The notes under the pieces: generated by a model
Told to the model about the DNA's origin: nothing
Seen by the model: the letters and a program-made list of their open reading frames with translations, nothing else
The model's database searches: none
Program-made: the position numbers and the translations under genes
Part shown: positions 289-62,763 of the stretch, one piece after another
Numbering within the stretch: the first letter of the stretch is position 1
How the letters are laid out: the number at the start of each line of letters is the position of its first letter
From: Saprospiraceae bacterium
GTDB taxonomy: Bacteria > Bacteroidota > Bacteroidia > Chitinophagales > Saprospiraceae
Assembly: GCA_958295895.1 (NCBI GenBank)
Contig: CATQHI010000005.1
Coordinates: 196,501-260,500, forward strand
DNA: 64,000 bases
Direction: 5' to 3'

Positions 289-3200
289 TACCCCAGCCGC
301 ATCAGCTCCCCCAACTCCCGATTACTCATCCCCCCCAAACTAGTCTCCCCCTCCACCACACTCAGTTCCGCCAGGTCCCGCTTACTCTCGATCAGCTGGT
401 CGATCCGCTCCTCGAAGGTAGCCGCCGTCACCAGCCGGTGCACGAACACCGTGCGCTCCTGCCCGATGCGGTAGGCCCGGTCGGTAGCCTGGGCCTCCAC
501 GGCCGGGTTCCACCAGAGGTCGTAGTGGATGACGTGATTGGCCGCCGTAAGGTTAAGGCCCGTGCCGCCGGCCTTGATGCTCACAAGTAAGAGCGGCGTA
601 TCGCTATCCGTCTGAAAGCGGTCGACCATTTCATCCCGTTGCTTGGTAGAGCTGCCGCCGTGGAGGAAGGGTGTTTCCAGGCCGAATTCCTTACGGATCA
701 TCTGTTGTAGCAACTCGCCCATCTCGCGGTACTGGGTGAAAATGAGGGCCTTGTCGCCGTTCTCCAGGATACTGGTCAGCCGCTCCCGTAGCAGCTCCGC
801 CTTACCACTCTGCCTGAAGTCGGCCGCGCCCTGCTTGAGGAACTGCGCCGGGTGGTTGCACACTTGCTTGAGGGCGGTGATGAGCTTGAGGATCAGCCCC
901 TGCCGCCCGATGCCCTCGCTCTGCTCCACCCGCCGCATATTCTCCGCGATGACGCTCTGGTAGAGAGCCGTTTGCTCAGGAGTTAGCGCGCAGTGCTCGG
1001 TCTGTACCACCTTATCGGGTAGGTCGGTGATGATGTCCCGGTCGGTCTTGAGCCGCCTCAGTACGAAGGGGGCCGTGAGCCGCTGAAAGCGTGCGGCCAC
1101 CCGCCGGTCGTGCTCCCCCTGGATGGGCCGTCCGTACTGCTCGTTGAAGTACTTGCGTGAGCCCAGGAATTTGGGGAGGGTGTAGTCCAGTAGGCTCCAG
1201 TAGTCCAGCAGCCGGTTCTCGACCGGGGTACCGCTCATGGCGATGCGCACCGCCGCTTTGATCTTCTTCACCGCCCGTGTCTGCTTGGCGCTGGGATTCT
1301 TGATGGCCTGGGCTTCGTCGATCACCGCCACCCGCCAGGGCAGTTTGGCCAGTCCTTCTTCGCTGCGGACTACGCCGTAGGTAGTCAATAGTACGTGGTA
1401 ATCGCCGACATCGGGCAGACTACGCGCGGCACCGTGGTACAGGTGGACGGTCAGTGCGGGCGCAAAACGGGCAATCTCCCGCTGCCAGTTGCCGAGTAGG
1501 CTGGTGGGGACGATCACGATGGCCTTTTCCCGGTCCAGCAGCCCCTCCTCGGCGTACTTCAGTAGCAGGGTGATTACCTGGAGGGTCTTGCCCAGTCCCA
1601 TATCGTCGGCCAGTACGGAGCCGAAGCCGAGTGCCGCATTCGTGTGTAGCCAGGCATACCCGCGTTCCTGGTAGGGCCGTAGGGTGGCGTTCAATCCGGG
1701 CGGGGTCGCAGGTGCAGAGCCTTCGCGTAGGCGGGTAATGAGCCGGGTCAGCTCCGGACCTAAGCGCACCGGTCCCCCCTCGTACTCCTCGGTAAACAGG
1801 GCCTGTAGCCGTTCGTGGGCCTTGAGCTCCGGCTCCCCGGCCGCGAGCTTGTCGATCAGCCGGGCCACTTCAGCCTGGTCCAGCATCACGTACTGCTCCT
1901 TCCAGCGGACCAGCCCGCCGGCGCCCTCCGCCAGTTGCATAAACTCCTCCTTGCTCACAAACCGATCGCCCAGCGCCAACTGCCAGTTGAACTGTAAGAT
2001 GTTATCCAGCGAGACGATCCCCGATAGCTCGAAGACCTGGGTGCCCGGTTTGGTCTGGGCGCTGAGTCCCAGCTGCGGGCGCAGCAACTTCCGCAGGGGC
2101 GCCGGTAGTAGTACCCGGATGCCTAGTGCCTCCATGCTCGGCAGTACGGCGGTCAGCACCGGGGTGAAGTCGTGGACCGAAAAGTGCATCGCGCCGGCCC
2201 CCTGCGCGGCCAGGTAGTCGCTCAGTTGGGGAAAGTGGCCGGCCAGGAAGGACAGCGTTTTAATTAGGCGTAGGCGGTCGACCCGCTCCGCTTCGGCTAG
2301 CCATTCCGCTAGGGGTACCGGGGGCTGGCTTTTATCCGCTTGCTCGCGATCGTAGACGAGCACGTCAACGGAGAGCCCAGCGTCCACCTCCACGACCCGC
2401 ACCACCGGCGAGAACCGCTGGTCGGCCAGGTGCAGCTGCCCCAGGTAGCGGTGTACCGCCTCCCCGAAGCCCTCAGTGCCAACCAGGGTAAACCGCTGCC
2501 GGCCCCGGAGTAAGAACAGGCGGCGGGCCGGGTTATCTTCCTCCATTCCCGCCGTAGCTTCCCGGATCATACAGCCCATTAATGCCGCAAGCAGTTGCCG
2601 GCCCGCCTGCTCCGGCCGGAACTCGTAGAACTCCTCCCGCTCCACGTACAGTAGGGTAGGGGCTACCAGGCAGTCGAAGCGCTGCAGGGTGTCAATCAGT
2701 TCTTCCGTGGTCGCCACCGGGAGGTACTGAGTGAGGTAGCTACTATCTAGGGCGTCGTAGAGTAGGGCGGGGACCAGCGACTTGCGTTGCACCTGCGTCC
2801 GCGCCAACTGGAAGGCGAGGAGGAGGCTGCGGGCTTCCTTGTTGAGCAGGTGGCGCTCGAGCTGTTCGATCTGCTGGAGCCAGTCGAGTACGGCGGCGTC
2901 GGTGGTGAGGTCGAGGCGGACCTCGTCCCGCTCGTCGTAGGCGGCCAGGCGGGTCAGGCGGAGGTCCGCGTCAAGGTGTAGCTCCAGCTGGGTGGCGGGG
3001 GGCAGGAGCTCGGCGACGGGTGTCGCTGCTTCCTTCTGCCAGAGCTTACTGGCGTAGCGGGCCGATTGGGTGTAAATCTTATTCAGGAAGGACTGAAAGT
3101 CACCCCCCGCATCGAAGGCGGGTTGCTCCGGCAGACGGCGCACGGCCTCCCAACCCTGATCGGCGAAGCGGCTGAAGTCGATGCTGGTGGCCAGCGCCTC

Positions 3201-5116: not shown

Positions 5117-5138
5117 CTCCGCACCTGCGGCCCCGCCC
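5117..5138 (-). repeat. Dispersed GC repeat, exact core, intergenic
   Basis: Exact core (N=C on the minus strand) followed by GGAG. It lies in the gap between the sulfatase stop (5162) and the promoter of the AAA ATPase gene. Confidence 0.85.
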
Positions 5139-6604: not shown

Positions 6605-9397
6605 CTATAGGTTGAACGTGAAGGTATAACTTCCCGAAGCCACCCGGTAGCCCCCATCAATCAATTCCACGAAGGCACTCTCCTCCACTGCTGCCCCATC
6701 CACCAGCAGCTCGCCTACCCCCGCAGGCAGCTGTAGCCGTCCCGTAACGCCGGGCGGCAGCTTAACTGAATAGGTAACCGTATTCCCCTGCTTAGCCCAG
6801 TTACTCTCAATCTTACCCCGGGGACTATCGTGAGAAGTTTTGACCCACTCCAAATTCGTCTCCACCCCGGGCGTAAGCGTAATCTCACCGGAGCCGGCCG
6901 CCCCCACGAAGGGATTGATACCCCCCAGGTAAGTGTACAGCCAGAAGCCGATGTTAGTACTGAAGGGGTGGTGGCCCGTACCGTAGCCCTCCGCGTTTAG
7001 GTTTTCGCCCATCGTGCTGCGGTCGCTGCTGACGAAGTGCAGCCAGCCCGGACTCTCCACCTGAGTCACCATCCGGTAGGCCAGCGGCAGGTCGTGCGCG
7101 CTGAGGTAGTAGAGTAGCGGCTTCACCCCCAAAAAGCCGACTGAGGTGTGGTAGTCGTTGGCGCGGATGGCATCCATGAGACGGGCATGCACCTTTTCGC
7201 GGTACTCCTCCGGCACGAGGCCGTAGTACAGCGGTACCACCTGGGCCGTCTGGGAGTTAGGATTATACCAACCGGTCTCCGTATCTAGGAACTCCTCGTT
7301 GAAGCGGTCGCGGATGCGGCTGGCATGGGCGGCGTAGGTCTCGGCGTCCTCCGTTTTGCCGAGCATTCGGGCGTAGCCGGCCAGCAGATCGCTGAAGTGG
7401 TAGCTACCCGCCGTCGAGGTCTGGGGCACCGGCGTCAGTCCCGGACCGAAGCCATTAGAGTTATGCGTCAGGTCGAGCCAGTCGCCGAGCGACCAGTTGA
7501 TGATATCGTCCTCGGCCGTGGTATAGAGGTATTCAAGGTAATCGCGCATCGGCTGGTAGGCGTGGGCGACGATGGCCGTATCCCCGGTGTACTGATAGAG
7601 CTTGTCGGTGACATAGAAGATGGTGCCGCCCCACCAGGGGTCGTCCCAGGTAAAAGGCTCGCCGTCGACGTTGAAGCTCCAGCCATTGGTGGGTACGATG
7701 GCCGGCACGTGGCCGTTGGGCTCCTGGGCGTCGATGAGGTCCTGCAGGTACTTTTGGTAGGCGTTGATGGCCTCGTAGTTCATCAGGTACGACTCCATCG
7801 TTTCCATGCCGCCATCGAGCGTCCAGCCCATCTTTTCGCGGGTGGGCTCCTCGCCGGGCATACCGTGGATACTGTTTTCCAGGGTGCGCCGTACGGCGGC
7901 GTGCAGTTCGTTGAGCCGTTCGTCGGAGCAGTTGAATGCTCCGATTGTCGCCAGATCAGTGTGCACCCGTTTAGCCGTTAGGGCGGGGAGCGCAGGTGCG
8001 GTGGAAACTCCGGAAAGCTGTACGTAGCGGAACCCGTGGTAGGTAAAACGCGGTTCGTACACCTCCTCCGTACCCCCGGCGGATACCAATACCCCCCGCT
8101 GAAAACGCCCCCAGGTGTGGCCGGAACTATGCTGCACGTCGAGGGTGCTGTCGGCCCGGAGGGTTTCGTTAAAGTCGAGGGTCACGGTCTGCCCCTCTTC
8201 CAGTTCCTCGAAGCGGACCTCCACCCAACCCGTCAGGTTCTCGCCGAAGTCGTACACGAAGGTGTCCGGGGCGGGGCTCCACATCCGCTCGGCACGCAGC
8301 TCGCCGGTCACCCGCAGGGGCGGCATGTACTGAGCACGCAGCTCACCTACCGGAGCGGGCGCCTCCACGACGGACTGCCAGTGACTGTCGTCGAAGTCGA
8401 GCGTATTCCAGCCCGGCTGCCGCTGGTTGAGGTCGATGGTCTCCCCACCGCGCAGGCTGTTGTAGACGATCTCGCCGTAGCCCCACCGCCAGCTGGTATC
8501 GGAGACGATCTCGCGGGTGCTGCCGTCTGTATATTTCACGTAGAGATTGAAAAGAAGTTTATTAGGTGTCTTCCAGTTGGCGCGGTTCATCTGAAAGAGG
8601 TCCTGGGTGGGCAGGTTATAGAAACCATTGCCGAGGATGACCCCGATGGCGTTACTGTCCACCCGCAGCTGGTCGGTGACGTCGTAGGTCAGGTACTGGA
8701 CTGTACGCTGGTAGTCGGTGAAGGCGGGATCGAGCATGTGGTCGCCCACCTTTTCCCCGTTCAGGCTCAGCTCGTAGTAGCCCAGTCCGGATACACTTAC
8801 CGTGGCCCGCTCGATCGCTTTACCGCCCAGCCCGATCTTCTTACGCAAGTAGATGGCCGTAGAGTCGCTGTCGTCGAAGTCTTGCGGCTCACTCACGAAG
8901 GGGGTACGCAGGGTACTCACGGGAGCATACTTCGAGGAGATCCACCGGGCATGCCAGTCGGTGGTGTCGAGCAGCCCCATGGTCCACCGGGCGGGCGCAC
9001 TCCAGTCGGTGGGACTACCGGTCTCGTCCCACACGCGTACTTTCCAGTAGCAGCGGTCGCGGGAGCTCAAGTTTCTTCCCCGGTAAGTGACGTGTACGCT
9101 AGCGGGGCTTGTGACTTTACCGGAGTTCCAGCGGTCGGCCCCGGCCTCGGTAAGTTTTTCGGGGCTACTGGCCACCAGGACCTGGTAGGCCGTTTGCTGG
9201 ATGCCATTACGGTCGCTAATCATTTTCCACCCCAGGCGGGGGGCGGTGGCATCGATGCCTAGGGGATCGGTGCCGTACTCACAGCGGAGGTCAGCTACCG
9301 CGCTGGACTGCCGTTGCTGGCCGTATCCAAAGGCCGAGACCAAGAGGCAGAGGACTAGCACCAGCTTTGTCGGAACGTGGGCTGGGAAGTCGGTCAT
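6605..9397 (-). CDS. Alpha-L-rhamnosidase (GH78), secreted
   Basis: A 930-aa glycoside hydrolase family 78 enzyme that releases terminal alpha-L-rhamnose. The N-terminal signal peptide ends near AFGYGQ. An N-terminal rhamnosidase beta-sandwich domain (DLRCEYGTDPLGIDATAPRLGW) is followed by the concanavalin-like domain, and then the (alpha/alpha)6 catalytic barrel. The barrel holds the general-acid motif REKMGWTLDGG and the conserved W-rich DDPWWGGTIF. The C-terminal beta-sandwich carries the typical SPRGKIESNW. First gene of a two-gene operon with the sulfatase. A box TACCTTGT lies about 20 nt upstream of the ATG. A variant of the GC repeat (7981) lies inside the gene. No SusC/SusD pair accompanies it. 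Confidence 0.94.
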   Translation of the reverse strand: MTDFPAHVPTKLVLVLCLLVSAFGYGQQRQSSAVADLRCEYGTDPLGIDATAPRLGWKMISDRNGIQQTAYQVLVASSPEKLTEAGADRWNSGKVTSPASVHVTYRGRNLSSRDRCYWKVRVWDETGSPTDWSAPARWTMGLLDTTDWHARWISSKYAPVSTLRTPFVSEPQDFDDSDSTAIYLRKKIGLGGKAIERATVSVSGLGYYELSLNGEKVGDHMLDPAFTDYQRTVQYLTYDVTDQLRVDSNAIGVILGNGFYNLPTQDLFQMNRANWKTPNKLLFNLYVKYTDGSTREIVSDTSWRWGYGEIVYNSLRGGETIDLNQRQPGWNTLDFDDSHWQSVVEAPAPVGELRAQYMPPLRVTGELRAERMWSPAPDTFVYDFGENLTGWVEVRFEELEEGQTVTLDFNETLRADSTLDVQHSSGHTWGRFQRGVLVSAGGTEEVYEPRFTYHGFRYVQLSGVSTAPALPALTAKRVHTDLATIGAFNCSDERLNELHAAVRRTLENSIHGMPGEEPTREKMGWTLDGGMETMESYLMNYEAINAYQKYLQDLIDAQEPNGHVPAIVPTNGWSFNVDGEPFTWDDPWWGGTIFYVTDKLYQYTGDTAIVAHAYQPMRDYLEYLYTTAEDDIINWSLGDWLDLTHNSNGFGPGLTPVPQTSTAGSYHFSDLLAGYARMLGKTEDAETYAAHASRIRDRFNEEFLDTETGWYNPNSQTAQVVPLYYGLVPEEYREKVHARLMDAIRANDYHTSVGFLGVKPLLYYLSAHDLPLAYRMVTQVESPGWLHFVSSDRSTMGENLNAEGYGTGHHPFSTNIGFWLYTYLGGINPFVGAAGSGEITLTPGVETNLEWVKTSHDSPRGKIESNWAKQGNTVTYSVKLPPGVTGRLQLPAGVGELLVDGAAVEESAFVELIDGGYRVASGSYTFTFNL
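7981..8003 (+). repeat. Dispersed GC repeat variant inside GH78 gene
   Basis: GGGCGGGGAGCGCAGGTGC with one additional base relative to the core, then GGTG. On the coding strand it encodes Ala-Pro-Ala-Leu-Pro-Ala. Confidence 0.6.
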
Positions 9398-11351: not shown

Positions 11352-11373
11352 CTTTGCACCTGCGGCCCCGCCC
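11352..11373 (-). repeat. Dispersed GC repeat, exact core, intergenic
   Basis: Exact minus-strand core followed by AAAG, between the Uma2 fragment and the trehalose synthase start. Confidence 0.85.
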
Positions 11374-11427: not shown

Positions 11428-14711
<3,284 letters not shown>

Positions 14712-14715
<4 letters not shown>

Positions 14716-15431
14716 CTCAGCAAGCGCCGGTAGATCGTGGTTAGATAGGATTGTCTAGCCCCCAGTCGGTACAGCGCGTACAGTAGTACGTAGGTAGCCT
14801 GCGTACGCACTAGACCATAGCGCAGGTACTTGCGCGGCGAGGTCGTCACGTGCCCGTCCAGCACTACAAACCCCCGGTACCGCCTGAGCCGGCGCACTAG
14901 CTCGTTATCCTCCAGTAGCCGCCAGTCGGGAAAGCCCCCCACGGCCTGAAAATCTTTGCGTAGTACCCACAGCGACTGGTCCCCAAAGCGGAAAGCCGGT
15001 AAATCATAGCGCGTAAAGGAGGCATACAGTCGCAGCAGGGGTACGCGCTCCTGACCGGTGAAGCACAGTCGAAAGCAGCAGGGTAGGGGACCGTGGTGGC
15101 GCAGCTGCTCTAGCCAATCTATAGGAGGTAGCGTATCGGCGTGTAGAAAATAAAGGCTCTTCCCCCGGGCCTGTTTAGCCCCCTCGTTCATCTGCCGGGC
15201 GCGGCCGCGGGTGCAGTGAATCAGGCGGACTCCCGAGCTCAGGGCAATGGCCTGGGTGCCATCCGTACTGCCCCCATCGACCACGATAATTTCATACGAA
15301 TCCCCCGTCTTCCCCCCGCTCGGGCTCTTTTCCCCCTCCTGCTGCCGTAGCCGTTGCAGGGTCGCGCTCAGGTGACTGGCTTCGTTTAAGGTGGGTAGGA
15401 TCACGGAGCACCAGGGTGTCTTCGGGCTCAT
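14712..15431 (-). CDS. Family 2 glycosyltransferase, TIGR04283-like
   Basis: A 239-aa GT-A fold glycosyltransferase. The N-terminal SVILPTLNEASHLSATL and the nucleotide-binding IIVVDGGSTDGTQ are typical. The sequence CTRGRARQMNEGAKQARG and FLHADTLPP contains the family RARQMN and metal-binding HAD motifs. GDQSLWVLRKDF and LLEDNELVRRLRR match the subfamily defined as TIGR04283 (often near lipid or arsenosugar genes). Acceptor unknown; probably acts at the inner membrane face. It overlaps the upstream small membrane-protein gene by 140 nt in another frame, which is unusual, and shares stop bases with the convergent treS gene. Confidence 0.85.
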
Positions 15432-17887: not shown

Positions 17888-19162
17888 CTACCGCAGTTGC
17901 TTGCGCAGGCCCACCTGTAGCCCGCCCATCCAGTAGTGCTCCGAAAGGGCGGCGTCGGGGGCGGTGAACGAGCCGGTATACTGCTTGAAGAAGGGCTCCA
18001 CCAGGAGCTCCAGGCTGCGCTGCTTACCGATGGGGTAGGTGGTCGTCAGCGAGGTGGTCCAGCCCAGGCCGAGCTGACGGCGGTACTGCTCTGCGGTAGC
18101 CAGCTCACGGGGCCGGGCGGAGGCGGGGTCGAGGTAGTGACCGCTTACGCCGGCGGTGTAGTGCAGTAGCGGACCGGCGTTGATACCTACCCGTAGGCGG
18201 CGGCCGGGCAGTTCGTAGCTGGCCAGCAGCGGTACTTCGAGGAGGCGAAGGCGGTTGTTGCTACGCAGCAGCCGGTCGTTGCCCTGGAGCATAGACTCGT
18301 ACTCGAACTGGTTGCGGAGCTCGGTGTAGGTCAGACCGGTGACCAGTCGCCAGGCCCCTCCGAGGCGGTAGCGCAGGCGGGCACTAAGCTGGTAGCTGAC
18401 CTCGGGAAATTCACTTACTTCCCGCAGCTCGCGCTGGGCCTGGCTACCCTCGGCCTGTAGACCGAAGCGCTGGTGGGCGTAGGCGGCCCCCAGTACCAGT
18501 TCGCCCTGGAAGCGCTGGCGGCCGCTGGCGCGGAAGCCTCCTTCGGGCGTAGCGTTAATCGGGCCTAGGGTAAGGAGTAGGGGGGCAAGGAGTAGGGGCT
18601 CAGGGGGGAGGGTCGAAATCGCTACGGTGGCTAGCTGTTGCGGCCTGAAATCTGACCTCGGGGGTACGCTGTTTACTGATTCCTCTGTACTAGGTGAAGT
18701 GAATGACTGCACGGGAGCGGAAGCTGTGGCTGTTGTACCGGAGGTAGCACGTAGATCGGCGGTATCGGATAGAATGGCGCGATCCTGTGTGGGGGAGGCG
18801 GGTGGTACGATGGCTGCCGTTCCGTCGGTTTGCACCTGCGTAGCCCGCCCACCCTGTGTTGCTGCAGCGGTAAGGCTGTCGTACACCAGGTAGCTGCCGC
18901 CGGCAAGGGCAAACAGGAAGAGCAGGGCCACGGCGGCATACCGGCGCAGGGCAGCGGGTCTACGGGCAGCGACGATACGCGCCCACATGCCCCGGGGTAC
19001 GGCAGCCTGCCGGTTGGCCAGGGTGGTGGCGAAGAGCTGATCGAGGGCTTCTCCCTCGGGGATGGTGGCTTTGTTGGCCTTAATTTTTTTCCACAGATCG
19101 GCTGGTACCTCGGGCTTGCGGTTACCGAGGCCGTCGCGGAACAGTTGGTCGAGTTCACTCAT
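17888..19162 (-). CDS. Anti-sigma-like N-terminus fused to outer-membrane beta-barrel
   Basis: A 424-aa protein. Residues 1-70 hold two copies of a ~26-residue motif, LDQLFRDGLGNRKPEVPADL and LDQLFATTLANRQAAVPRGM, each followed by W-x-x-I. One transmembrane helix (about 75-95) follows, then a low-complexity Thr/Ser/Pro linker. A C-terminal PorT-like beta-barrel region has alternating strands such as ARLRYRLGGAWRLVTGLTYTEL and a terminal aromatic strand. It overlaps the ECF sigma gene by 4 nt, so the two are translationally coupled. In Bacteroidota such proteins are thought to act as membrane-linked regulators of the cognate sigma factor. How one chain could span both membranes is unclear. The motif duplication is unusual. 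Confidence 0.72.
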   Translation of the reverse strand: MSELDQLFRDGLGNRKPEVPADLWKKIKANKATIPEGEALDQLFATTLANRQAAVPRGMWARIVAARRPAALRRYAAVALLFLFALAGGSYLVYDSLTAAATQGGRATQVQTDGTAAIVPPASPTQDRAILSDTADLRATSGTTATASAPVQSFTSPSTEESVNSVPPRSDFRPQQLATVAISTLPPEPLLLAPLLLTLGPINATPEGGFRASGRQRFQGELVLGAAYAHQRFGLQAEGSQAQRELREVSEFPEVSYQLSARLRYRLGGAWRLVTGLTYTELRNQFEYESMLQGNDRLLRSNNRLRLLEVPLLASYELPGRRLRVGINAGPLLHYTAGVSGHYLDPASARPRELATAEQYRRQLGLGWTTSLTTTYPIGKQRSLELLVEPFFKQYTGSFTAPDAALSEHYWMGGLQVGLRKQLR

Positions 19163-32668: not shown

Positions 32669-32690
32669 GGGCGGGGTCGCAGGTGCGGTG
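32669..32690 (+). repeat. Dispersed GC repeat, exact core, intergenic
   Basis: Exact core (N=T) followed by GGTG, in the gap between the kinase stop and the flavoprotein start. Confidence 0.85.
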
Positions 32691-42170: not shown

Positions 42171-42761
42171 CTACTGAAAAAGTATTTCGTCAACCTCCCT
42201 GCTCCGCCGGGGCCACCAGAGGCTATAGGCCGCCGCAGCAACTAGTACTACAGCCACCAGAGAGGGCAGGGCGGGGACGCTGGTGCCCCCCCAGTTGAAA
42301 ATAGCCAGTTGCGTCGCTAGTTCCTCACCACTGCTCGTGGTCAGGGCCGTCTGGTAGGACATCCAGAACAACCCCCCCAGCATGGCGATCAGGGCCAGCT
42401 GGCGGGCACTGTGCCGGAGCATCGGCGTGGTGTGGGTAGCCGAGGTCCACACCGCCGGGTGGTCACCCAGGTACTCGATCAGTTGATTGCGGTCCTGGAC
42501 CGAGCGCAGTTGCAGCCGGCGGGTCTTACCCTTGTGTAAGCGTACGGTCACGGCGGCCGAGCCCTGGTGGGAGCGTACGCGCAGCAGCTGGTGATTGGGA
42601 AAGAGCACGGCTCCCTCGGGCAGTGCTCCGGCCTGCAGCGCGCGCATGGCGTTCAGGGCCCGGGGGCGGTCTATGTGGAGCGTGCCGAGCCCGCGTTCAT
42701 CGAGGAAAAGGTAGGCGCGTTTTAGGGAGTCTTTACGGGTGCGGAGGGGCCAGTATTTCAT
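42171..42761 (-). CDS. Membrane protein with N-terminal PH-like soluble part
   Basis: About 196 aa from ATG 42761 (MKYWPLRTRKDSLKRAYLFL). The N-terminal ~120 residues are soluble and beta-rich (VLFPNHQLLRVRSHQGSAAVTVRLHKGKTRRLQLRSV). Two transmembrane helices follow, about 127-146 and 168-188. No family recognised. It is the first gene of a likely two-gene unit with the TonB receptor. A one-mismatch GC repeat at 42269-42286 encodes the loop between the helices. Confidence 0.55.
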   Translation of the reverse strand: MKYWPLRTRKDSLKRAYLFLDERGLGTLHIDRPRALNAMRALQAGALPEGAVLFPNHQLLRVRSHQGSAAVTVRLHKGKTRRLQLRSVQDRNQLIEYLGDHPAVWTSATHTTPMLRHSARQLALIAMLGGLFWMSYQTALTTSSGEELATQLAIFNWGGTSVPALPSLVAVVLVAAAAYSLWWPRRSREVDEILFQ

Positions 42762-46689: not shown

Positions 46690-48025
46690 GAACCGCCGCC
46701 GGCTCGGCGACCACTAGTCCGTCCTCCGTCAGCTCCTGCAGCTCCATATCCACCAGGTGATTAACCCAACTATCCGGGGCCGGGAAGGTGACCTTAATAT
46801 AGTTGTCGGTAAAGCCGTGCAGCACACCCTTCTTCTTACTTTGTTCCAGTAGTACGGGGCGGACCTCCCCCAGGTGCCGTGCGGCAAAGGTATGCCGCTT
46901 ACGTTCGCTAAGGATGCTGAGTTGCTTATTGCGGCGGCGACGCTCGCTCAGGGGCACCACGCTCTCCATTGCGGCGGCCGGCGTATTGGCCCGCTCGCTG
47001 TAGGTGAATACGTGGAGGTAGCTCACGTCGAGCGCCTCCACGAAGCGGTAGGTCTCCCGGAAGTCCTCCTCGGTCTCGCCGGGAAAGCCGACGATCAAAT
47101 CGACCCCGATGCAGCAGTGCGGCATCACGCGGAGAATGTGGGCTACCCGCTCGGCGTAGAGCTCCCGGCGGTAGCGGCGGCGCATCTTGGCCAGCTGCTT
47201 GTTATTGCCGCTCTGTAGGGGCATATGGAAGTGGGGGGCAAAGCGCTCGCTACCGGCTACGAAGTCGATCACCTCATCCGTACACAGGTTGGGCTCGATA
47301 CTCGAGATACGGAAGCGCCGGATGCCGGCCACCCGGTCGAGGGCCCTAGCCAGGTCCACGAAGAGCGCCTCCTTACGCGGCCGCTGCCCCTCGATCACCG
47401 CCGTACCGTTTCCAAAATCCCCGATGTTGACGCCGGTGAGTACGATCTCCTTCACCCCCCGGGCGGCAATGGCCTCGGCGTCGCGCACGATCTGCTCCAC
47501 GGTGCTACTCCGGCTCGCCCCCCGCGCCAGGGGTATCGTGCAGAAGCTACAGCTGTAGTCGCAGCCGTCCTGTACCTTCAGAAAGGAGCGCGTGCGGTCC
47601 CCAAAACTGAAGGATGACACGAAGGTGTCCGCCTCCCGCACCTCCCCGGCCCGCACCATTCCCTTGCCGGAGCCGGAAGCGATGCCGTCGATATAGTCCA
47701 GGATGCGGAACTTCTCCGCCGCCCCCAGTACCAGGTCTACGCCGTCGATAGCGGCGATCTCTTCGGGCTTAAGTTGGGCATAGCAGCCCACCACCACGAC
47801 CTTCGCACCTGCGTTCGCGCCCAGTGCCTTGCGCACTACGTTGCGGCACTTGCGGTCGGCAAACTCAGTGACGGAGCAGGTATTGATCACGACCACGTCC
47901 GCCCCCTCCCGGAAGGGCACCTCCTGGTAGCCCGCGGCGGTGAACTGGCGCCCGATGGCGGAGGTCTCTGAGTAGTTGAGCTTGCAGCCGAGGGTGTAGA
48001 AGGCTACGGTACCGAGGGTTGACAT
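46679..48025 (-). CDS. mtaB: tRNA t6A37 methylthiotransferase MtaB
   Basis: A 448-aa radical-SAM methylthiotransferase. The N-terminal UPF0004 domain carries three cluster Cys (TLGCKLN, VINTCSVTEFADRKCR, VVGCYAQL). The radical-SAM motif is CDYSCSFCTIPLARG (CxxxCxxC), and a TRAM-like RNA-binding tail ends the protein. TLGCKLN at the start is characteristic of MtaB as opposed to MiaB or RimO. It converts t6A37 to ms2t6A in tRNA. The ATG at 48025 is preceded by a perfect TACCTTTG box at four bases, within a mirror-image inverted repeat shared with the divergent GT2 gene. A degenerate GC repeat lies at 47801. Confidence 0.95.
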   Translation of the reverse strand: MSTLGTVAFYTLGCKLNYSETSAIGRQFTAAGYQEVPFREGADVVVINTCSVTEFADRKCRNVVRKALGANAGAKVVVVGCYAQLKPEEIAAIDGVDLVLGAAEKFRILDYIDGIASGSGKGMVRAGEVREADTFVSSFSFGDRTRSFLKVQDGCDYSCSFCTIPLARGASRSSTVEQIVRDAEAIAARGVKEIVLTGVNIGDFGNGTAVIEGQRPRKEALFVDLARALDRVAGIRRFRISSIEPNLCTDEVIDFVAGSERFAPHFHMPLQSGNNKQLAKMRRRYRRELYAERVAHILRVMPHCCIGVDLIVGFPGETEEDFRETYRFVEALDVSYLHVFTYSERANTPAAAMESVVPLSERRRRNKQLSILSERKRHTFAARHLGEVRPVLLEQSKKKGVLHGFTDNYIKVTFPAPDSWVNHLVDMELQELTEDGLVVAEPAAVPTA

Positions 48026-50675: not shown

Positions 50676-50697
50676 CGCCGGGGCCGCAGGTGCAATG
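50676..50697 (+). repeat. Dispersed GC repeat, two core mismatches, intergenic
   Basis: CGCCGGGGCCGCAGGTGC then AATG, 30 bp upstream of the DUF4412-like gene start. Confidence 0.55.
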
Positions 50698-54496: not shown

Positions 54497-55199
54497 ATGC
54501 CGACCAATGTAGCGCTTTGCCTGCTTCTTATCGCCCTGCTTTGCACCTGCGTCCCCGCCCCCGGAGATACGCTGGATGGCACCGTCCATACTTACTGGGT
54601 CAACAGTAGTAAGGTGCCGTGTACCGGCGTAGGCCCCGCAAACCTGCCTGCAAATTAGGCGGGGAGCGGATCCGGAGGTGGGTGAGTGGGAGTACTTTTA
54701 CAGTAGCATCGACGGCTTCGACTACGAGCCCGGCTACCTGTACCGGCTGAGCGTGCGGGAGACGCCGCGTGGTGAGGCCGCTACACCCGCTGATGCCAGT
54801 ACTATCGTATATACCCTTGTGAACGTAGAAGAAAAACGACCCGATCCCACGCTGCGGCTCAACGACATCTGGGCACTGGAGACCATCGCCGGGGAGGCAG
54901 TCGAGCTGGGGGACGATGCGATGCTACAGCAGCCTACCATCGAATTTCAGCTGGCCGAACGGCGGGTCGGGGGGCCGAACGGCTGTAACAACTTCAGTGG
55001 TATGCTGGAAAAGGTGGGAGCCGGTACGCTACGATTCGGTCCGCTAGCCATGACGCGTAAGATGTGCCGGAACAATACTATCCCGGACCGGGTCACCGCG
55101 GCGCTGGACCGGGTAGCCGGCTACCGGCTCGATGGGCTTACCTTGCAGCTCCTTGACGCGGCCGGGGAACCGCTGCTGGGCTACCGGAAGGTGGACTAA
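54497..55199 (+). CDS. DUF4377-META domain lipoprotein, one frameshift
   Basis: About 234 aa when one C is dropped from the C4 run at 54634-54637. The ATG at 54497 starts a lipoprotein signal (ALCLLLIALLCTC); the lipobox region is encoded by an exact GC-repeat copy. DUF4377 follows (VHTYWVNSSKVPCTGVGP, then EWEYFYSSIDGFDYEPGYLY). The C-terminal META (HslJ-type) domain has LNDIWALETIAG, GPNGCNNFSGML, LRFGPLAMTRKMC and LLDAAGEPLLGY. Such lipoproteins are periplasmic and of unclear role; META proteins are linked to heat or novobiocin resistance in E. coli. Confidence 0.82.
54539..54560 (-). repeat. Dispersed GC repeat, exact core, in lipoprotein signal
   Basis: Exact minus-strand core followed by AAAG. 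On the plus coding strand it encodes Cys-Thr-Cys-Val-Pro-Ala, the same frame as at 34918. Confidence 0.85.
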
Positions 55200-56217: not shown

Positions 56218-56967
56218 GAAGGTGCGGCGGATATTGGAGACGGAGTCAGCATACTTGTCCATGCCCTTGATTTCGTTCCAGGTGGCGTCGGCACCGAACT
56301 TGCCCCAGTTCTCGTCGCGGGTCGCCATATCGGGAAACTGCAACAGATACACTAGGGCCGGACGGTAGGGGCCGGCGATCATATCTCCGAAGAAGACGGG
56401 CTTGAGGCCGGTGTTGTCGAAGATGGTCAGCTCGTGGTCGTTGAACATGCCGATCTTGCGGCGCACGGCGTCTTCGGAGTAGCCCTCGTAGATGCGAAGT
56501 TCCAATACGCCCGATTCAGCGTCGGGGGCAACGGACTGCGGCATACCGGAAAAGGCCTTCAGTAGCCAGGAGGAGTAGCGGGTGAAGATGGGCTTCTCGG
56601 CCTTGAGGGCGTCGTAGTCGGCAGCGGCGGTGGTAAATTCCTGATCTTCGGTCAGGTCCTGGGCCGCGAGGTAGGTCGCCGCATCCGGGTAGCTGATCAT
56701 CACGTGCAGTTTGGCCGGATTGGGATCGCCGTACTCCTTGAACTGGACGAACTGGGTAGCCCCCTTACGATCCAGAGCGGGTTCGAGGGCATCGGTGAGG
56801 TAGCGTGTGAGTAGTCCCTGATCGCCGCCGAAGTTCATCTCGTAGACGCGCCACTCGATCACCTCCTGCTCGGGAGCGATCGTGTGGGTGGCGGCCAGGC
56901 CTACTTTGCTTCCTGCTAGGGCCACCGCACCTGCGACCCCGCCCTGTATGAACTTTCTGCGTTCCAT
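56203..56967 (-). CDS. NIPSNAP-family protein with Tat-like signal
   Basis: A 254-aa protein with two tandem NIPSNAP (dimeric alpha-beta barrel) repeats: EWRVYEMNFGGDQGLLTRYL to ISYPDAATYLAA, and VLELRIYEGYSEDAVRRKIG to LVYLLQFPDMATRDENWGKF. The N-terminus MERRKFIQGGVAGAVALAGS carries a twin-arginine-like motif RRKFIQ, so the folded protein is probably exported by Tat. The Gly/Ala core of that signal is encoded by an exact GC repeat. The biochemical role of secreted NIPSNAP proteins is not established. Confidence 0.87.
   Translation of the reverse strand: MERRKFIQGGVAGAVALAGSKVGLAATHTIAPEQEVIEWRVYEMNFGGDQGLLTRYLTDALEPALDRKGATQFVQFKEYGDPNPAKLHVMISYPDAATYLAAQDLTEDQEFTTAAADYDALKAEKPIFTRYSSWLLKAFSGMPQSVAPDAESGVLELRIYEGYSEDAVRRKIGMFNDHELTIFDNTGLKPVFFGDMIAGPYRPALVYLLQFPDMATRDENWGKFGADATWNEIKGMDKYADSVSNIRRTFLVPA
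56923..56944 (-). repeat. Dispersed GC repeat, exact core, in Tat signal region
   Basis: Exact core on the minus (coding) strand followed by GGTG. It encodes Gly-Gly-Val-Ala-Gly-Ala of the signal peptide, a different frame from the lipoprotein copies. Confidence 0.85.
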
Positions 56968-56997: not shown

Positions 56998-58266
56998 ATG
57001 CAACATCCGGAATGGGCCAAAGACGCCACCGTTTATCAGATTAATACCCGCCAGTTCACCCCTGAAGGCACCTTCAGCGCCGCGCTGGAGCAACTGCCCC
57101 GCCTACAGCAGCTCGGCGTGCGCATCCTCTGGGTCATGCCCGTGCACCCCATTGGCGAAGAGAACCGCAAGGGGGAACTAGGCAGCCCGTACTCGATCCG
57201 TAACTACTACGGCGTGAATGAGGAGTTCGGGACCCTGGATGATCTGAAGGCCTTCGTGCAGCGCGCCCACGAGCTCGGGCTCTACGTCATCCTGGACTGG
57301 GTCGCCAACCACACCGCCTGGGACAACGTGCTCGTAGAGGAGCACCCCGATTGGTACGCCCGCGACTACAAGGGCGACTTCCGGCCCACGCCCTGGTGGG
57401 ACTGGACGGACATCATCGACCTCGACTATGGCCAGCCTGACCTACGCACCTACATGCGCGAGGCCATGGAATACTGGGTGCGTGAGGTGGACGTAGACGG
57501 CTACCGCTGCGACGTGGCCGGCTATGTACCGGTCGACTTCTGGGAGGAGGTGCGGCAGGCGCTCGACGCCATCAAGCCCGTCTTCATGCTCGCCGAGTGG
57601 GAGGCGCGCGATCTGCACCGGGCGGCCTTCGACGCGACCTACGCCTGGAGCTGGCACGAGGCGCTGCACCGCATCACCCACGGCAGGGAGACCGTCGCGG
57701 CCCTGTACGTCTACTATTCCTGGAACGAGCGCGCCTGGCCGGAAGACGCCATGCGCATGACCTTCACCGACAACCACGATAAGAACGCCTGGGAGGGCAC
57801 CATGCAGGAGCTGCTGGGTGATGGGCTGGAGACATCCATTGCTCTTTCCTTCATTGGTGAGGGCATCCCTTTGATTTATAACGGACAAGAGGCGGGGCTC
57901 GACCGGCGGCTGGCCTTTTTCTCACGCGATCCGATTGAGTGGCGGGAGCACCCGTTCGCTGAACTCTTCCAGCAGCTGATCCGATTGAAGCATCAAAACG
58001 AGGTCCTCTGGAATGCCCCCTGGGGAGCCACCATGATCCGCGTGCCGAACAACTACGAGTCGCAGGTCCTCAGCTTCGTGCGGCAGGACGACGGCGGTAA
58101 GGTCTTTGCCGTGTTCAACTTCGGGGCGGGGACGCGGGTGCTACGCTTCGGGCAGGCGCTGTGGCAGGGTACGTACCGCGATGGGCTCTCCGGCGAGGAG
58201 GTCGTGCTGGGGGAGGGGGATGGGCTGACGTTGGGGCCCTGGGCTTGGCGGGTGTTGATGGAATAG
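56998..58266 (+). CDS. Alpha-amylase family (GH13) glycosidase
   Basis: About 422 aa from ATG 56998 (MQHPEWAKDATVYQINTRQF), without signal peptide, so probably cytoplasmic. GH13 regions: LDWVANHTAWDN (region I), VDGYRCDVAGYVPVDFW (region II, nucleophile Asp), MLAEWEARDLH (region III, Glu) and FTDNHDKNAWEG (region IV). The C-terminal beta-sandwich ends WAWRVLME. The short length and unusual W-E-A-R after the acid/base suggest a maltodextrin- or oligosaccharide-specific enzyme. It may work with the TreS-maltokinase fusion in alpha-glucan metabolism; this is inference. A one-mismatch GC repeat lies at 58124-58141. Confidence 0.9.
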   Translation: MQHPEWAKDATVYQINTRQFTPEGTFSAALEQLPRLQQLGVRILWVMPVHPIGEENRKGELGSPYSIRNYYGVNEEFGTLDDLKAFVQRAHELGLYVILDWVANHTAWDNVLVEEHPDWYARDYKGDFRPTPWWDWTDIIDLDYGQPDLRTYMREAMEYWVREVDVDGYRCDVAGYVPVDFWEEVRQALDAIKPVFMLAEWEARDLHRAAFDATYAWSWHEALHRITHGRETVAALYVYYSWNERAWPEDAMRMTFTDNHDKNAWEGTMQELLGDGLETSIALSFIGEGIPLIYNGQEAGLDRRLAFFSRDPIEWREHPFAELFQQLIRLKHQNEVLWNAPWGATMIRVPNNYESQVLSFVRQDDGGKVFAVFNFGAGTRVLRFGQALWQGTYRDGLSGEEVVLGEGDGLTLGPWAWRVLME

Positions 58267-58270
58267 TGAA

Positions 58271-59306: not shown

Positions 59307-59349
59307 TAAATAATTCACACCAAGTCGCGCAGCGGCCTCACAATCAATC

Positions 59350-62300
59350 TCACCGAGCCTCCTCCCCACCCAAACTAGCCAGAAACGCCACCACATCCCG
59401 GATCTCCCGCCGCGAAAGCTTCTCCTCCATCGAAGGCATACTCGACGGTAGGGTCTCCTCCTCCTTGATGTCGCTGCGGGCGATGGTCTGGATATCTTCC
59501 TTACCGATCTTCAGCGTTAGGGCCTCCGGGGTGCGCTCCATGACCACGCCGGCTACGACGCTCTCATCGTTGAGCGTAAGCAAAACGGTCTCGTAGCCGG
59601 GGGCCATGCGGGCGCTGGGCCGGATCAGGGCCTCCAGAAGTTGTTGATGACTGAGCCGGTCAGCCACGCCTTCCAGTCCCGGACCGACGTTACCACCGTA
59701 CTCGAATACGGCATGACAGCGCACGCACTGCGCCGACTCGTTATTGTAAAAAATACGCTGTCCCTGCCGCGCATCACCTCCTTCTAGGGCCATGGCGTAG
59801 AGGCCGTAGTCGGCGTTTAGTTTTCCGGCGTAGTCGGTGAGTAGAGCGTTGAGCTCGGGGTCGCCGTGCTGCTCGACGGCGTCGGCTAGGTCCAGGCGGA
59901 CGTCGGCGGGGACCTTATCCTCTTCCAGATTAGTGAGCATGCGTTGCAGAAGCTCGGTGGCGGCTACATCATGGATTTCGGCCAGTCCCTGTAGGGCGGC
60001 CTGCTGCTCGACCACGGAGCCCTTCTGTAATATCTCATCGTACAGATCGACCGAGCGGGCCGCACTGATGCCCGAGCTGGGTAGGATCTCGAGGGCCCGG
60101 GCCCGTACCTCGCTGGCGCGGTCGGCCAGGGCGGTCTGTAGGTCGCGGTCGAGCTCGGGGGTTTCTAGCATGGCGAGGGCGTTGAGGGCCTCGATGCGTA
60201 CGGCTGGGTCACGGTCCTTGCTGAGGAGTGAGGTCAACTGGGGGATGGTCTGGTCCAGCTGCAATTTCCCGGCGGCCTGGATGGCAGCGCGGCGTACGGG
60301 TGCACTTCGCTCGTTGATGAGTTGGGCGATGGCCGGTTCCAGAAGGCGTGCCGCTTCCGTAGAGTCGCGCTCAAGCTCCCCGCGGTACCGTCCGTCCACC
60401 CGGTCGAACAGGGAGGGGCTGCCCCAGTTGGCGAGGGTCGCCATTGCCTCGCCGCGCATGGCTTCGGGAGCTCCGGTGCGGTTGACATAGTCGACGAGCC
60501 GCTGGATACTCGCCCGATCGCCCACCCGTAGGTTCGCGTTAATCGCCCGCCGCAGTAAGGGCTCACTCGTGAAACGGGTATCCGCTAGGGTAGCGGCGAG
60601 CGCCGGTAGGGCGTCCTCGATCTGGTAGTCGTCGTTGATGCCCCGGGCGGCCTCGGCCACCAAGTACTCATCTGCGTCGGTGAGGAACTCGGCGATGGCC
60701 GGCGATTCCATCCGCCGTAGGGCCACTACGGCTACGGTGCGCAGAGCGCGGGAGGGACTGTTCTTTAGCGCCACCATAGCATCCGCATCGCCGATCCGGC
60801 CCAGGGCAATCATGGCCCCCATACGCAGGTAGGTATCCTTATCGTCGTTGGCCTCCACCACGCGGAGGATGCCCGGTACGGCGTTCTGATCCTCGGTGCG
60901 ACCGAGTGCCTCCATGGCCATGTACTTTACCCGGGGTGAGTCGTGGTCCAGGGTGCGGATGAGCTCCTGACTCGCTCCGCCGAAACGTACGTCACCGATC
61001 ATCTTAGCTGCCTGGGCTACGATCTCCGGATCGTCATCGTCCAGAAAGTCAACCAGTACGTCGATGGCCTTTCCCCCATGGCGGTGCATCTGCGCCAGGC
61101 CCCAGATCGCGTGGATACGGGCGAGCTGATTGGTATTACTTTCGGCCGTAGCGCGGAGCACATCGTAGCCTTGCGCCCCGCGGTTGTCGGCTAGTTCGAA
61201 CTGCGCGTTACGCCGCACCCTTTGATCCTGGTGGGCCAAGAGCAACTCCAGCGAATCCAGCGATACGGTAGTGAAGTCCGTAGTCAGCAGCCGCTGCGTT
61301 TCTCTGCGAACCTGCGACCCCGCCCCCCCGGGCACGTCTAGCTTCCAGATGCGGCCCTCGTCCTTTATGTTCCAGCCGTTGATCCAGTCGGCGAAGTAGA
61401 GCGCTCCGTCGGCCCCGAAGTCGACACCGGTGGGTAGCAGTCCGGAGACTACGATGTGGGTGCTATCCAGGGCAAAGCCCGCCCCATCTGGTTTGAGCGT
61501 GAAGGCGTGCAACGGCGAATTCCCCGGATTACCGCGAAACTCGGCCACGAAGAAATGCTTGTAGTAGTCCGGTCCCAGTGCGGTGCCCGGGTTATAGACC
61601 AGTCCCGTCGGACCGTTCACGTAGTTCTGCAGCGGCGGCAGGAAGTAGGCGGCCTGGCCCTCCTCGCGGGGTAGGTACATGCGCTCGTCCATCCACACCT
61701 TGTAGTCGTTGTTGCTGGGGTCGGTGTACTTGCCGAACTGCCAGTTGATGCGCCAGCCGGAGTCGGAGCCGTCCACCAGGTACACCAGCCGCTCGCTCTC
61801 GCCGGCGTGGTCGCCGTCGTTGTCTACGCTGATCAGGTTGCCGTAATCATCGAAGGCAAATTCGTGGGTATTGCGCACCCCGTGGGCGTAGACCTCGAAG
61901 TTGCTGCCGTCGCGATCGCAGCGTACCACCGTGCCCTCATTGGGGTACTTCCAGTGCTTGCCCTCCTTGTCGACTACGTTCATGCCCACGTCGCCGGCAC
62001 CCCACCAGATGCGGCCCTGGGGCCCTACGGTTACACCCGACATGCCGTGGCCCGAGAAGCCCACGTGTACGATCCAGCCGTGGCTGATGGAGGTGGTCTC
62101 GTCGGCCCGCCCGTCGCCGTCCGTATCCTCAGTGCGCCAGAGGTCGGGGCCGGTGGAGATGTAGACCTCGCCGTTGAGGTACTCTATGCCGTTAGCTACG
62201 TCGGTGTTTTCCTCATTGAAGTCTTCTAGGTACAGTTGTGCCCGGTCGGCTACCTCGTCCCCGTCCATATCGGTCACGAACCAGACTTGTTCCTTCTGCA

Positions 62301-62763
62301 CGGTGAGGTCACGCCAGTCGAGTACGCCGTCTTCATTCAAATCCTTCAGGTGGCGCTGCGACTGCTCACTGTCCTCGGTGAAGGTTTCGTGCAGGAATTT
62401 TGCCCGGTCCTCCACGGTTTCGAAGCGTAGCGAGGCGGTCATCCAGTCGCGGTGCCCCCGGATATCGAATTCGGAATCGCCCATTCGCACGGCCTTGTTG
62501 TAGAACAGGCGTCCGTCCGGCGCTACGCTGATTGCGATCGGGTCGGTAACCAGCGTATCGGAGGCCCAGAGGGAAAGCTCCAGCCCGTCGTCGACCTGTA
62601 CGTTGGCCTCGGCGCGGATCTTTTCGGCCAGGGCGGCGGCGCGGTCGGGGGCCAGGGTGATGCTGCGGTCGGGGTAGCGGGGTTCGGCGGGGGTGTCTTC
62701 CGGGGCGGGGCCGCAGGTGCAGAGGAATAGAAGGGGGAGTAAGGCGGGTAGGAGGCGTAGCAT
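59350..62763 (-). CDS. PVC-type dehydrogenase-HEAT-cytochrome c lipoprotein
   Basis: About 1137 aa from ATG 62763 (MLRLLPALLPLLFLCTCGPA), a lipoprotein signal whose lipobox is encoded by an exact GC repeat. The N-terminal half is the beta-propeller-like putative membrane-bound dehydrogenase domain of planctomycete (PVC) type: LELSLWASDTLVTDPIAISV, GHGMSGVTVGPQGRIWWGAG, GVRNTHEFAFDDYGNLISVD. The middle is a series of HEAT repeats (VRRNAQFELADNRG to AVRIEALNALAMLE). The C-terminus is a cytochrome c domain with CVRCHAVFEYGGNVGPGLEG (CxxCH heme site). It is thus a periplasmic electron-transfer enzyme, probably for sugar oxidation. Intact frame throughout. Confidence 0.9.
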   Translation of the reverse strand: MLRLLPALLPLLFLCTCGPAPEDTPAEPRYPDRSITLAPDRAAALAEKIRAEANVQVDDGLELSLWASDTLVTDPIAISVAPDGRLFYNKAVRMGDSEFDIRGHRDWMTASLRFETVEDRAKFLHETFTEDSEQSQRHLKDLNEDGVLDWRDLTVQKEQVWFVTDMDGDEVADRAQLYLEDFNEENTDVANGIEYLNGEVYISTGPDLWRTEDTDGDGRADETTSISHGWIVHVGFSGHGMSGVTVGPQGRIWWGAGDVGMNVVDKEGKHWKYPNEGTVVRCDRDGSNFEVYAHGVRNTHEFAFDDYGNLISVDNDGDHAGESERLVYLVDGSDSGWRINWQFGKYTDPSNNDYKVWMDERMYLPREEGQAAYFLPPLQNYVNGPTGLVYNPGTALGPDYYKHFFVAEFRGNPGNSPLHAFTLKPDGAGFALDSTHIVVSGLLPTGVDFGADGALYFADWINGWNIKDEGRIWKLDVPGGAGSQVRRETQRLLTTDFTTVSLDSLELLLAHQDQRVRRNAQFELADNRGAQGYDVLRATAESNTNQLARIHAIWGLAQMHRHGGKAIDVLVDFLDDDDPEIVAQAAKMIGDVRFGGASQELIRTLDHDSPRVKYMAMEALGRTEDQNAVPGILRVVEANDDKDTYLRMGAMIALGRIGDADAMVALKNSPSRALRTVAVVALRRMESPAIAEFLTDADEYLVAEAARGINDDYQIEDALPALAATLADTRFTSEPLLRRAINANLRVGDRASIQRLVDYVNRTGAPEAMRGEAMATLANWGSPSLFDRVDGRYRGELERDSTEAARLLEPAIAQLINERSAPVRRAAIQAAGKLQLDQTIPQLTSLLSKDRDPAVRIEALNALAMLETPELDRDLQTALADRASEVRARALEILPSSGISAARSVDLYDEILQKGSVVEQQAALQGLAEIHDVAATELLQRMLTNLEEDKVPADVRLDLADAVEQHGDPELNALLTDYAGKLNADYGLYAMALEGGDARQGQRIFYNNESAQCVRCHAVFEYGGNVGPGLEGVADRLSHQQLLEALIRPSARMAPGYETVLLTLNDESVVAGVVMERTPEALTLKIGKEDIQTIARSDIKEEETLPSSMPSMEEKLSRREIRDVVAFLASLGGEEAR
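61304..61325 (-). repeat. Dispersed GC repeat, one core mismatch, inside PVC gene
   Basis: Minus-strand core with one substitution (GGTTC instead of GGTGC). It encodes Gly-Ala-Gly-Ser-Gln-Val. Confidence 0.6.
62703..62724 (+). repeat. Dispersed GC repeat, exact core, in lipoprotein signal
   Basis: Exact core (N=C) followed by AGAG. The minus-strand coding sequence specifies Cys-Thr-Cys-Gly-Pro-Ala, same frame as at 34918 and 54539. Confidence 0.85.

Follow-up and report, generated by a model that had tools for sequence, protein, structure and literature searches.

A dispersed, oriented word with species dialects in Neolewinella-like Bacteroidota as a candidate self-DNA uptake tag

To our knowledge, DNA words that serve as self-DNA tags have been established only in the Neisseriaceae and Pasteurellaceae, and in both families they require type IV pili. 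The uptake signal sequence (USS) of the Pasteurellaceae consists of a conserved core with weaker flanks. For the USS a molecular drive model has been put forward (PMC1939737), and for the DNA uptake sequence (DUS) of the Neisseriaceae eight dialects have been described, one of which differs by an inserted base, while some relatives carry no obvious DUS (PMC3630211). In the open-licence literature, we found no uptake sequence for the Bacteroidota beyond putative 10-mers that were tabulated for Riemerella and Flavobacterium. Here we describe a dispersed GC-rich repeat with an 18-bp core that was noticed in a 64,000-nucleotide stretch of DNA from a Saprospiraceae bacterium (assembly GCA_958295895.1, contig CATQHI010000005.1, positions 196,501 to 260,500), which is referred to as the window. 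Based on an analysis that rests entirely on sequence, we consider it somewhat more probable than the alternatives taken together (a probability of about 0.55) that this repeat is a self-DNA tag of the DUS or USS type that is read on one strand. The most informative features in this respect are its dialects, its alternating orientation and the repulsion between copies on the same strand, none of which were part of the original prediction for this stretch.

In the window, 25 matches to the core were found when up to 3 mismatches were allowed, whereas 100 dinucleotide shuffles yielded 1.08 on average and never more than 4. A pattern search of the window recovered all copies that had been listed in the original prediction, namely eight perfect cores, five copies with one mismatch, six copies with two or three mismatches, and three copies with extra bases (Table 1). 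The minus-strand coordinates given at the time were lower by 4, because they included the 4-base tail. Four further matches with two or three mismatches, at 10913, 12539, 15197 and 37882, had been missed. A logo was derived from 131 copies with at most one mismatch in 864 kb, counting the first core base as 0. The core positions 5 (mostly G or C), 8 (any base) and 12 (mostly A or G) are loose. The tail, which had been proposed to read RRWG, was retrieved in part, with A or G at +18 (83%) and +19 (93%) and a G at +21 (56%), but +20 showed no clear preference and the tail as a whole is weaker than proposed, being best described as weak and purine-rich. Beyond the tail there is a weak A at +23, a T at +26 and a G at +28. 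The predicted density of one copy per 3 kb turned out to be too high, since a degenerate pattern detected 140 exact and 58 one-mismatch copies in 987 kb, which amounts to 198 copies or about one per 5 kb.

The genome from which the window derives (G000; 4.77 Mb in 35 contigs) was compared with 20 other genomes of the genus and 19 more distant genomes from the family and order. Its polynucleotide phosphorylase is 85-87% identical to those of N. xylanilytica, N. persica and N. antarctica, the nearest named relatives in our search, and by this measure the host is a Neolewinella-like member of the Bacteroidota. Genome-wide, 376 plus-strand and 334 minus-strand matches with at most one mismatch were detected (710 in total), compared to 0+0 for the reversed word. 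The excess over chance that had been predicted from the window therefore holds for the entire genome, and the word is non-palindromic and hugely overrepresented against a matched control.

Across the 20 other genus genomes the copy number of the window's word ranges from 1 to 884, and in the 19 more distant ones it is 0 or 1. In the culturable species N. persica (DSM 23188), 22 kb were found to contain 7 copies with at most 2 mismatches. Three genus genomes that are poor in this word (G011, G001 and G013) were each found to carry a different abundant word. In G011, a logo of 99 copies from 400 kb reads TTTTGRCT, followed by one or two spacer bases, CAAAGTAGCA, and then RtGTT. The pattern GRCTN{1,2}CAAAGTAGCA occurs 534+532 = 1066 times in this genome (mirror control 0+1), once in G013, once in the distant genome G035, and not at all in 19 other genus genomes. 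In G001, GGCGGCGGAGCGCAGGTA is represented by 218+204 = 422 copies (mirror control 0), and other genus genomes contain 0-33 copies of it. The word of G013, GGGCGCTGCCGCNGGTGC, was found in 451+459 = 910 copies (mirror control 0). It overlaps with the C-variant of the window's word, which is why up to 725 copies are counted in other genus genomes, the mirror controls reaching at most 4+2 (G019). G002 and G019 have mainly GGGCGCGGNCGCAGGTGC, as judged from the matches listed and a sample. We regard these abundant words of the sister species as dialects. G007 has very few copies of every dialect tried, with just 22 and 33 copies of two of them, and this species may be losing its tag or may be using another word. 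No comparable dispersed word was seen in outgroup samples of G021 (94 kb), G022 (31 kb), G023 (84 kb) and G024 (3.7 kb), but little sequence was sampled, and in 80-kb samples of G004, G007 and G016 the word likewise escaped these scans, so that this result does not prove its absence. Separately, Saprospira grandis was seen to have a different dispersed repeat, AGGGCCGAGC, which is embedded in longer conserved flanks and occurs in nine apparently intergenic places within 22 kb.

The orientation of the copies was analysed in five contigs or parts of contigs from G000, G009 and G011, each 187-400 kb long, which together contain 350 copies (for G011, exact CAAAGTAGCA in one contig only), so that polarity was resolved within contigs rather than at the scale of whole replichores. 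Neighbouring copies were in opposite orientation in 240 cases and in the same orientation in 105 (P about 3e-13). All five contigs agree in direction, with opposite/same counts of 53/33, 51/15, 32/11, 62/26 and, for G009, 42/20, although the first of these (C2) is weak when taken alone (P 0.04). Only 40 same-orientation pairs were separated by less than 3 kb where 113 were expected, as opposed to 130 opposite-orientation pairs where 114 were expected. The ratio of observed to expected same-orientation pairs was 0 at 0-250 bp, 0.27 at 250-500 bp, 0 at 500-1000 bp, 0.36 at 1000-2000 bp, 0.60 at 2000-3000 bp and 0.79 at 3000-4000 bp, and it was near expectation from 4 kb onwards, whereas opposite-orientation pairs remained at 0.90-1.36 at every distance. 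A fourth genome, G013, shows the same behaviour among the 67 copies listed for its contigs C11 and C12, contig C14 having been left out as only plus-strand copies were among the matches listed: 42 neighbours are opposite and 23 the same (P 0.025), and below 3 kb there is 1 same-orientation pair versus 13.3 expected, compared to 13 opposite pairs versus 14.0 expected. Among 16 control 9-mers of similar number, 15 had a same-orientation fraction of 0.44 or more; the remaining one, which does show the effect, overlaps with the end of the motif.

One way to account for this repulsion would be purifying selection against deletions, because recombination between direct repeats can delete the intervening DNA and recombination between inverted repeats cannot; the word itself could then have any role. 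The near absence of same-orientation pairs closer than 1 kb (3 versus about 46 expected) would be in line with this view. However, the effect extends to 4 kb in proportion to distance, probably further than 18-bp repeats would bring about, and no such depletion was seen for 15 of the 16 control 9-mers, albeit that these are shorter repeats. We therefore regard this explanation as quite improbable.

The repulsion was best described by the function d/L with L = 4.5 kb (lnL 1614.7), as compared to an exponential (1611.5), a step (1606.8) and a flat function (1564.8), where lnL is the log-likelihood. The quantity d/L is the share of 4.5-kb pieces that contain one copy of a pair but not the other. 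We simulated a drive in which a new copy is favoured solely on pieces that lack a same-strand copy, using a single fixed length derived from the data and no fitness term. With strand-specific reading and L = 4.5 kb, the ratios for same-orientation pairs in the six distance classes up to 4 kb were 0.08, 0.24, 0.39, 0.67, 0.77 and 1.06, and those for opposite pairs were 0.92-1.10. In the strand-blind version both kinds of pairs were depleted and no alternation arose. A strand-specific drive would thus be sufficient to produce the observed pattern, sufficiency being all that such a simulation addresses.

Altogether, the following scenario for an uptake-type tag can be proposed. A surface or periplasmic receptor of the natural transformation machinery would prefer DNA that has the word on one particular strand, and DNA from the same species would then be taken up and recombined more often. 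A chance mutation that creates the word in an untagged stretch would spread through the population by molecular drive. As a piece of 4-5 kb would need one word per strand, a second copy nearby in the same orientation would gain nothing, whereas a copy on the other strand would still gain, leading to even tagging strand by strand and to alternating orientations. The receptor and the word would change together, such that each species keeps its own dialect, and newly acquired islands would remain untagged for the time being. We thus infer that the word is read, on one strand, by the uptake machinery, that the receptor co-evolves with the word, and that the copies are maintained by drive rather than by a function inside the cell. 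One part of contig C3 of G000 is of interest here, as it had 0 copies with at most one mismatch in samples from 235-255 kb and 265-285 kb, and 1 in the sample from 295-315 kb. The genes of the stretch without copies specify a type I methylase, an AraC-type regulator, and several further regulators and dehydrogenases, and it contains a DDE-family fragment just below the cut-off and, as judged by eye, a possible second transposase. This stretch is possibly an acquired island, in which case the lack of copies is expected, because newly acquired DNA would be untagged.

A word that is read on one strand could also be a Chi-like signal. In this case, a helicase-nuclease of the AddAB or RecBCD type that enters from a DNA end would read the word on one strand and switch to recombination, for which one copy per orientation would be needed every few kb. 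The density of the word resembles that of Chi, and reading of one strand in one orientation would make redundancy among same-orientation copies plausible. Moreover, a PD-(D/E)XK nuclease match (PF12705) was obtained in all 40 genomes searched, and contig C2 of G000 (L092:6084-16326) encodes a UvrD-helicase/PD-(D/E)XK nuclease fusion at 5 kb from comEC, with frr, serS and rho among the genes in between; matching coordinates suggest that this neighbourhood is shared by several relatives. On the other hand, the Chi sites of Escherichia coli (47 sites in 250 kb of MG1655) are strongly polar, with counts of 5/1, 12/0, 7/1, 1/7 and 1/12, and they show no repulsion in the same orientation (26 pairs below 3 kb versus 21.4 expected). 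The present word is balanced within each contig, its strand counts being 44/43, 37/30, 20/24, 39/50 and 31/32 with no polarity inside contigs, and it carries about 27-30 bits of information. Chi is 8 bp long, and a change of dialect within one genus would be unusual for it. On balance, a Chi-like role appears unlikely, although it is the strongest of the alternatives that we considered.

A chromosome-organising site is a further alternative, in which an oriented protein or a barrier to SMC complexes would bind the word and set loops of a few kb, with convergent or alternating orientations marking the loop ends. The even spacing of copies in four of the five contigs or contig parts and the alternation in all five are compatible with such a role, and so is the accessory-looking stretch without copies. 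In the five contigs, convergent (+-) pairs below 3 kb slightly exceed divergent (-+) pairs (78 versus 52), which may point the same way. Opposite pairs, however, lie at near-random distances without a preferred loop size, and the word varies between species, G007 being almost devoid of it. In addition, the information content of the word is about twice the 13.3 bits that suffice to locate the sites. Even though this estimate is inflated, as the sites were chosen by similarity, such an excess would point to a tag maintained by drive rather than to an ordinary binding site. We consider an organising role to be less likely still than a Chi-like one. Furthermore, an overrepresented word of 18 bp would be unlike what a methylase requires.

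The placement of the copies was assessed with gene calls from a simple codon-usage script, which places gene starts only approximately, and signal peptides were assigned by visual inspection. Intergenic copies were strongly enriched in G000 (78 of 154; 14.4% expected), G011 (48 of 99; 12.0%) and G009 (29 of 63; 16.9%). In the same order of genomes, the in-gene copies were enriched in the first 100 bases of genes (15 versus 7.2, 11 versus 4.2, and 8 versus 3.0 expected), but not in the last 100 bases (8 versus 6.7, 3 versus 4.1, and 2 versus 2.9), and there was no clear preference for the sense or antisense strand (42/34, 28/23 and 14/20). Several copies in the window lie within apparent signal peptides, in different reading frames. 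The gaps between convergent genes were depleted of copies (8 versus 13, 1 versus 6.9, and 0 versus 8.2 expected). Folding of the word revealed no hairpin beyond chance (five folds, z -1.24 to 0.06), and no Rfam family matched the window at the gathering score. A role as terminator was rejected because convergent gaps are depleted and no hairpin forms, and a role as promoter or regulatory site was rejected because about half of the copies are in-gene, many of them far from the start.

The origin of the copies was traced by comparison with G009 (91 reciprocal best hits, median amino-acid identity of 83%). For the 28 in-gene copies checked, there was no orthologue in 5 cases, an ungapped alignment in 12, a gapped stretch in 6, and an N-terminus absent from the orthologue's gene call in 5. 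In the last-mentioned cases all 18 columns are gapped and thus uninformative, while the six gapped cases, with 3-33 gap columns, lie where conservation is poor or complexity is low, and they include the copy at C5 21237, which is short of 9 word bases in G009. Among the 12 ungapped orthologues (out of 23 orthologues), ten carry the motif when up to 2 mismatches are allowed, while the other two lack it. None of the 11 informative or gapped cases with a readable alignment showed the word cleanly inserted by itself, and the 11 gapped or missing cases are not evidence for or against insertion. When intergenic copies were included (44 sites, 13 of which have no orthologous stretch in G009), 20 of the 31 mappable copies had a counterpart within 200 bp in the same orientation and none had solely a flipped one. 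At control positions shifted by 1.5-3.5 kb, 0-3 of 29-31 had a same-orientation counterpart and 0-4 only an opposite one. The conserved copies differ at 17 of 300 fixed bases and at 24 of 60 degenerate bases. The low value for fixed bases is in part due to selection, as orthologous copies were accepted with up to 2 mismatches, and the fair comparison is that of the 20 out of 31 with the shifted controls. The ungapped orthologues and the positional conservation indicate that point substitution can give rise to copies, which are thereafter maintained at their positions as DNA. This agrees with the original suggestion that selection, or drive, acts on DNA and not on protein: copies occur in both orientations and several frames, and fixed bases are kept while degenerate bases and the protein change.

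These observations also bear on the idea that the word is a mobile unit, related to repetitive extragenic palindromes (REP) with their associated tyrosine transposases (RAYT) or to miniature inverted-repeat transposable elements, which multiplies by inserting itself elsewhere. The presence of hundreds of short, nearly identical copies that face either way might be taken to favour this idea. Yet the word lacks a hairpin, 12 of 23 in-gene copies align without gaps to orthologues of which two have no word, no insertion of the word was seen in alignable genes, sites are common to homologous positions, and about half of the copies are in-gene. We therefore rejected a mobile element, which we deem very improbable. 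When plasmids were searched with one of the intergenic copies, a single match was obtained, at chance level. Among the roles named in the original prediction, an uptake or recombination signal fits best, whereas a REP-like mobile unit finds no support.

Natural transformation of Riemerella anatipestifer, a member of the same phylum, requires ComEC, DprA, ComF, RecA and four proteins without known counterparts, one of which contains a DUF5689 domain (PMC8459023), and Riemerella columbina has been reported to favour its own DNA (PMC7965970). All 21 genus genomes have ComEC, and DprA was detected in 20 of them, the miss being G010, which is 55% complete. Several observations weigh against an uptake-type tag. 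ComEC and DprA are also present in 16 and 17, respectively, of the 19 distant genomes, in which no word that we tried is abundant, and these genes therefore do not single out the genus. The platform protein of type IV pili and type II secretion systems (PF00482) was not found in any of the 21 genus genomes, although 13 of 14 control genomes were positive; pilins were not searched for. The receptor route known from Neisseria, via the pilin ComP, is thus probably unavailable, and no protein that specifically binds the word emerged from our analysis. DUF5689 was detected in 15 of 19 distant genomes, whereas a single one of the 21 genus genomes contains it. This genome is G011, which has the most divergent word and encodes a protein with three such domains (contig C115:8691-10592); this may be a clue to a change of receptor, or chance. 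Furthermore, the overall spacing of copies in G009 is no more even than random (coefficient of variation 1.07 versus 1.04), our simulation yields 61% opposite neighbours as compared to 70% in the genomes, and uptake by Haemophilus has been reported to be independent of the orientation of the strongest word (PMC1939737), in contrast to the strand-specific reading inferred here. Lastly, no uptake experiments on the present bacteria were found in the open-licence literature.

A more specific version of the proposal would be a pilus-free, independently evolved uptake-sequence system of the Bacteroidota, which reads one strand of a dialect present on both strands, with a spacing set by the single-stranded pieces of about 4.5 kb that are taken in. 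We put this forward tentatively, at somewhat less than an even chance. If it is true, the length of the fragments exchanged in nature could be read straight from a genome, and a third, pilus-free self-DNA tag in a distant phylum, with radical dialect changes within one genus, would imply that drive systems of this kind have evolved repeatedly. Repulsion between same-strand copies offers a quantitative signature, applicable to any genome, for telling uptake drive from Chi-like or architectural sites, and the dialects offer a direct route to the putative receptor as the protein that changes along with the word.

Table 1. Copies of the word in the window, with positions given for the 18-bp core or its variant.
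Feature	Position	Strand	Evidence
Core copy, 1 mismatch at loose position 12	15..32	-	pattern search
Core copy, one extra G near 3' end	271..288	-	pattern search
Perfect core, antisense within SNF2-helicase gene 288-3857(-)	1698..1715	+	pattern search
Core copy, 2 mismatches, sense within SNF2-helicase gene 288-3857(-)	2789..2806	-	pattern search
Perfect core, intergenic gap	5121..5138	-	pattern search, gene calls
Core copy, one extra base (GGGCGGGGAGCGCAGGTGC from 7981), antisense in rhamnosidase gene	7982..7999	+	
Perfect core, intergenic by gene calls, upstream of amylase-domain gene 11428-14715(+)	11356..11373	-	
Core copy (GGGCGCGGCCGCGGGTGC) within 14712-15404(-); identical in G009	15197..15214	+	
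Core copy with extra base (GGGCGGGCTACGCAGGTGC)	18832..18850	-	
Core copy, 1 mismatch, antisense within 21070-22461(-)	22375..22392	+	
Core copy, 2 mismatches, near start of 25567-26769(-); variant at matching place in G009	26680..26697	+	
Core copy, 2 mismatches, in-gene; variant kept in G009, ungapped	28697..28714	-	
Perfect core, intergenic; word conserved in G009, flanks diverged	32669..32686	+	
Perfect core in apparent signal peptide (MKSLFVFLVLCTCVPAL) of 34891-35238(+); not conserved in G009	34922..34939	-	
Core copy, 3 mismatches, in-gene; better match in G009 orthologue, ungapped	38435..38452	+	
Core copy, 1 mismatch, in-gene; no match in G009, ungapped protein-guided alignment	42269..42286	+	
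Core copy, 2 mismatches, in-gene; 18-mer identical in G009	47805..47822	-	
Core copy, 2 mismatches, intergenic by gene calls; motif kept in G009, flanks diverged	50676..50693	+	
Perfect core, intergenic by gene calls; no orthologous G009 stretch found	54543..54560	-	
Perfect core in apparent N-terminal signal sequence (MERRKFIQGGVAGAVALAGS) of 56203-56967(-); identical in G009	56927..56944	-	
Core copy, 1 mismatch, in-gene; variant in G009 despite protein change GAGTRV to SARPQV	58124..58141	+	
Core copy, 1 mismatch, in-gene; no word and no gap in G009 (substitution origin)	61308..61325	-	
Perfect core in apparent lipoprotein signal peptide (LCTCGPAP) of 59350-62763(-); identical in G009	62703..62720	+	

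Besides these copies, the window encodes an AbiEii-family nucleotidyltransferase of the type IV toxin-antitoxin type (10156-10935, plus strand).

When compared with known dispersed words, the present one differs from REP elements, which are imperfect palindromes, mostly extragenic and spread as inserted copies, none of which was observed here (a RAYT gene was not searched for). The cyanobacterial word HIP1 is likewise very abundant in the chromosome, but it is an octameric palindrome according to the title of a work cited in PMC1939737, while our word is oriented. With Chi it shares strand specificity and a spacing of a few kb, but Chi is short and, in E. coli, polar and free of same-orientation repulsion. 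Riemerella belongs to the same phylum and also transforms by means of ComEC and DprA, but its putative uptake words are, among the rows listed, simple AT-rich 10-mers unlike the present word (PMC7965970), and the DUF5689 domain of its transformation protein (PMC8459023) is missing from 20 of the 21 genus genomes. The Pasteurellaceae USS is an overrepresented word as well, which is biased towards gene ends (PMC2346458) and is taken up via type IV pili (PMC7965970). The receptor of the Neisseriaceae DUS is a type IV pilin, in contrast to the 21 genus genomes, where no gene for the pilus platform was found. DUS measure 10-12 bp compared to about 18-25 bp here, and they number in the thousands of copies rather than in the hundreds to a thousand. 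Inverted pairs of DUS are associated with terminators (PMC3630211), as opposed to the depletion in convergent gaps seen here, and repulsion on the same strand is not mentioned for DUS in the passages of that article that were consulted. Like the present word, DUS are non-palindromic, have permissive positions and form dialects among relatives. Apart from the type IV pilus machinery, those genomic traits of uptake sequences that were looked for are encountered here, namely overrepresentation, presence in both orientations without polarity inside contigs, dialects, origin by substitution in permissive places with conservation at homologous positions, and the company of comEC and dprA.

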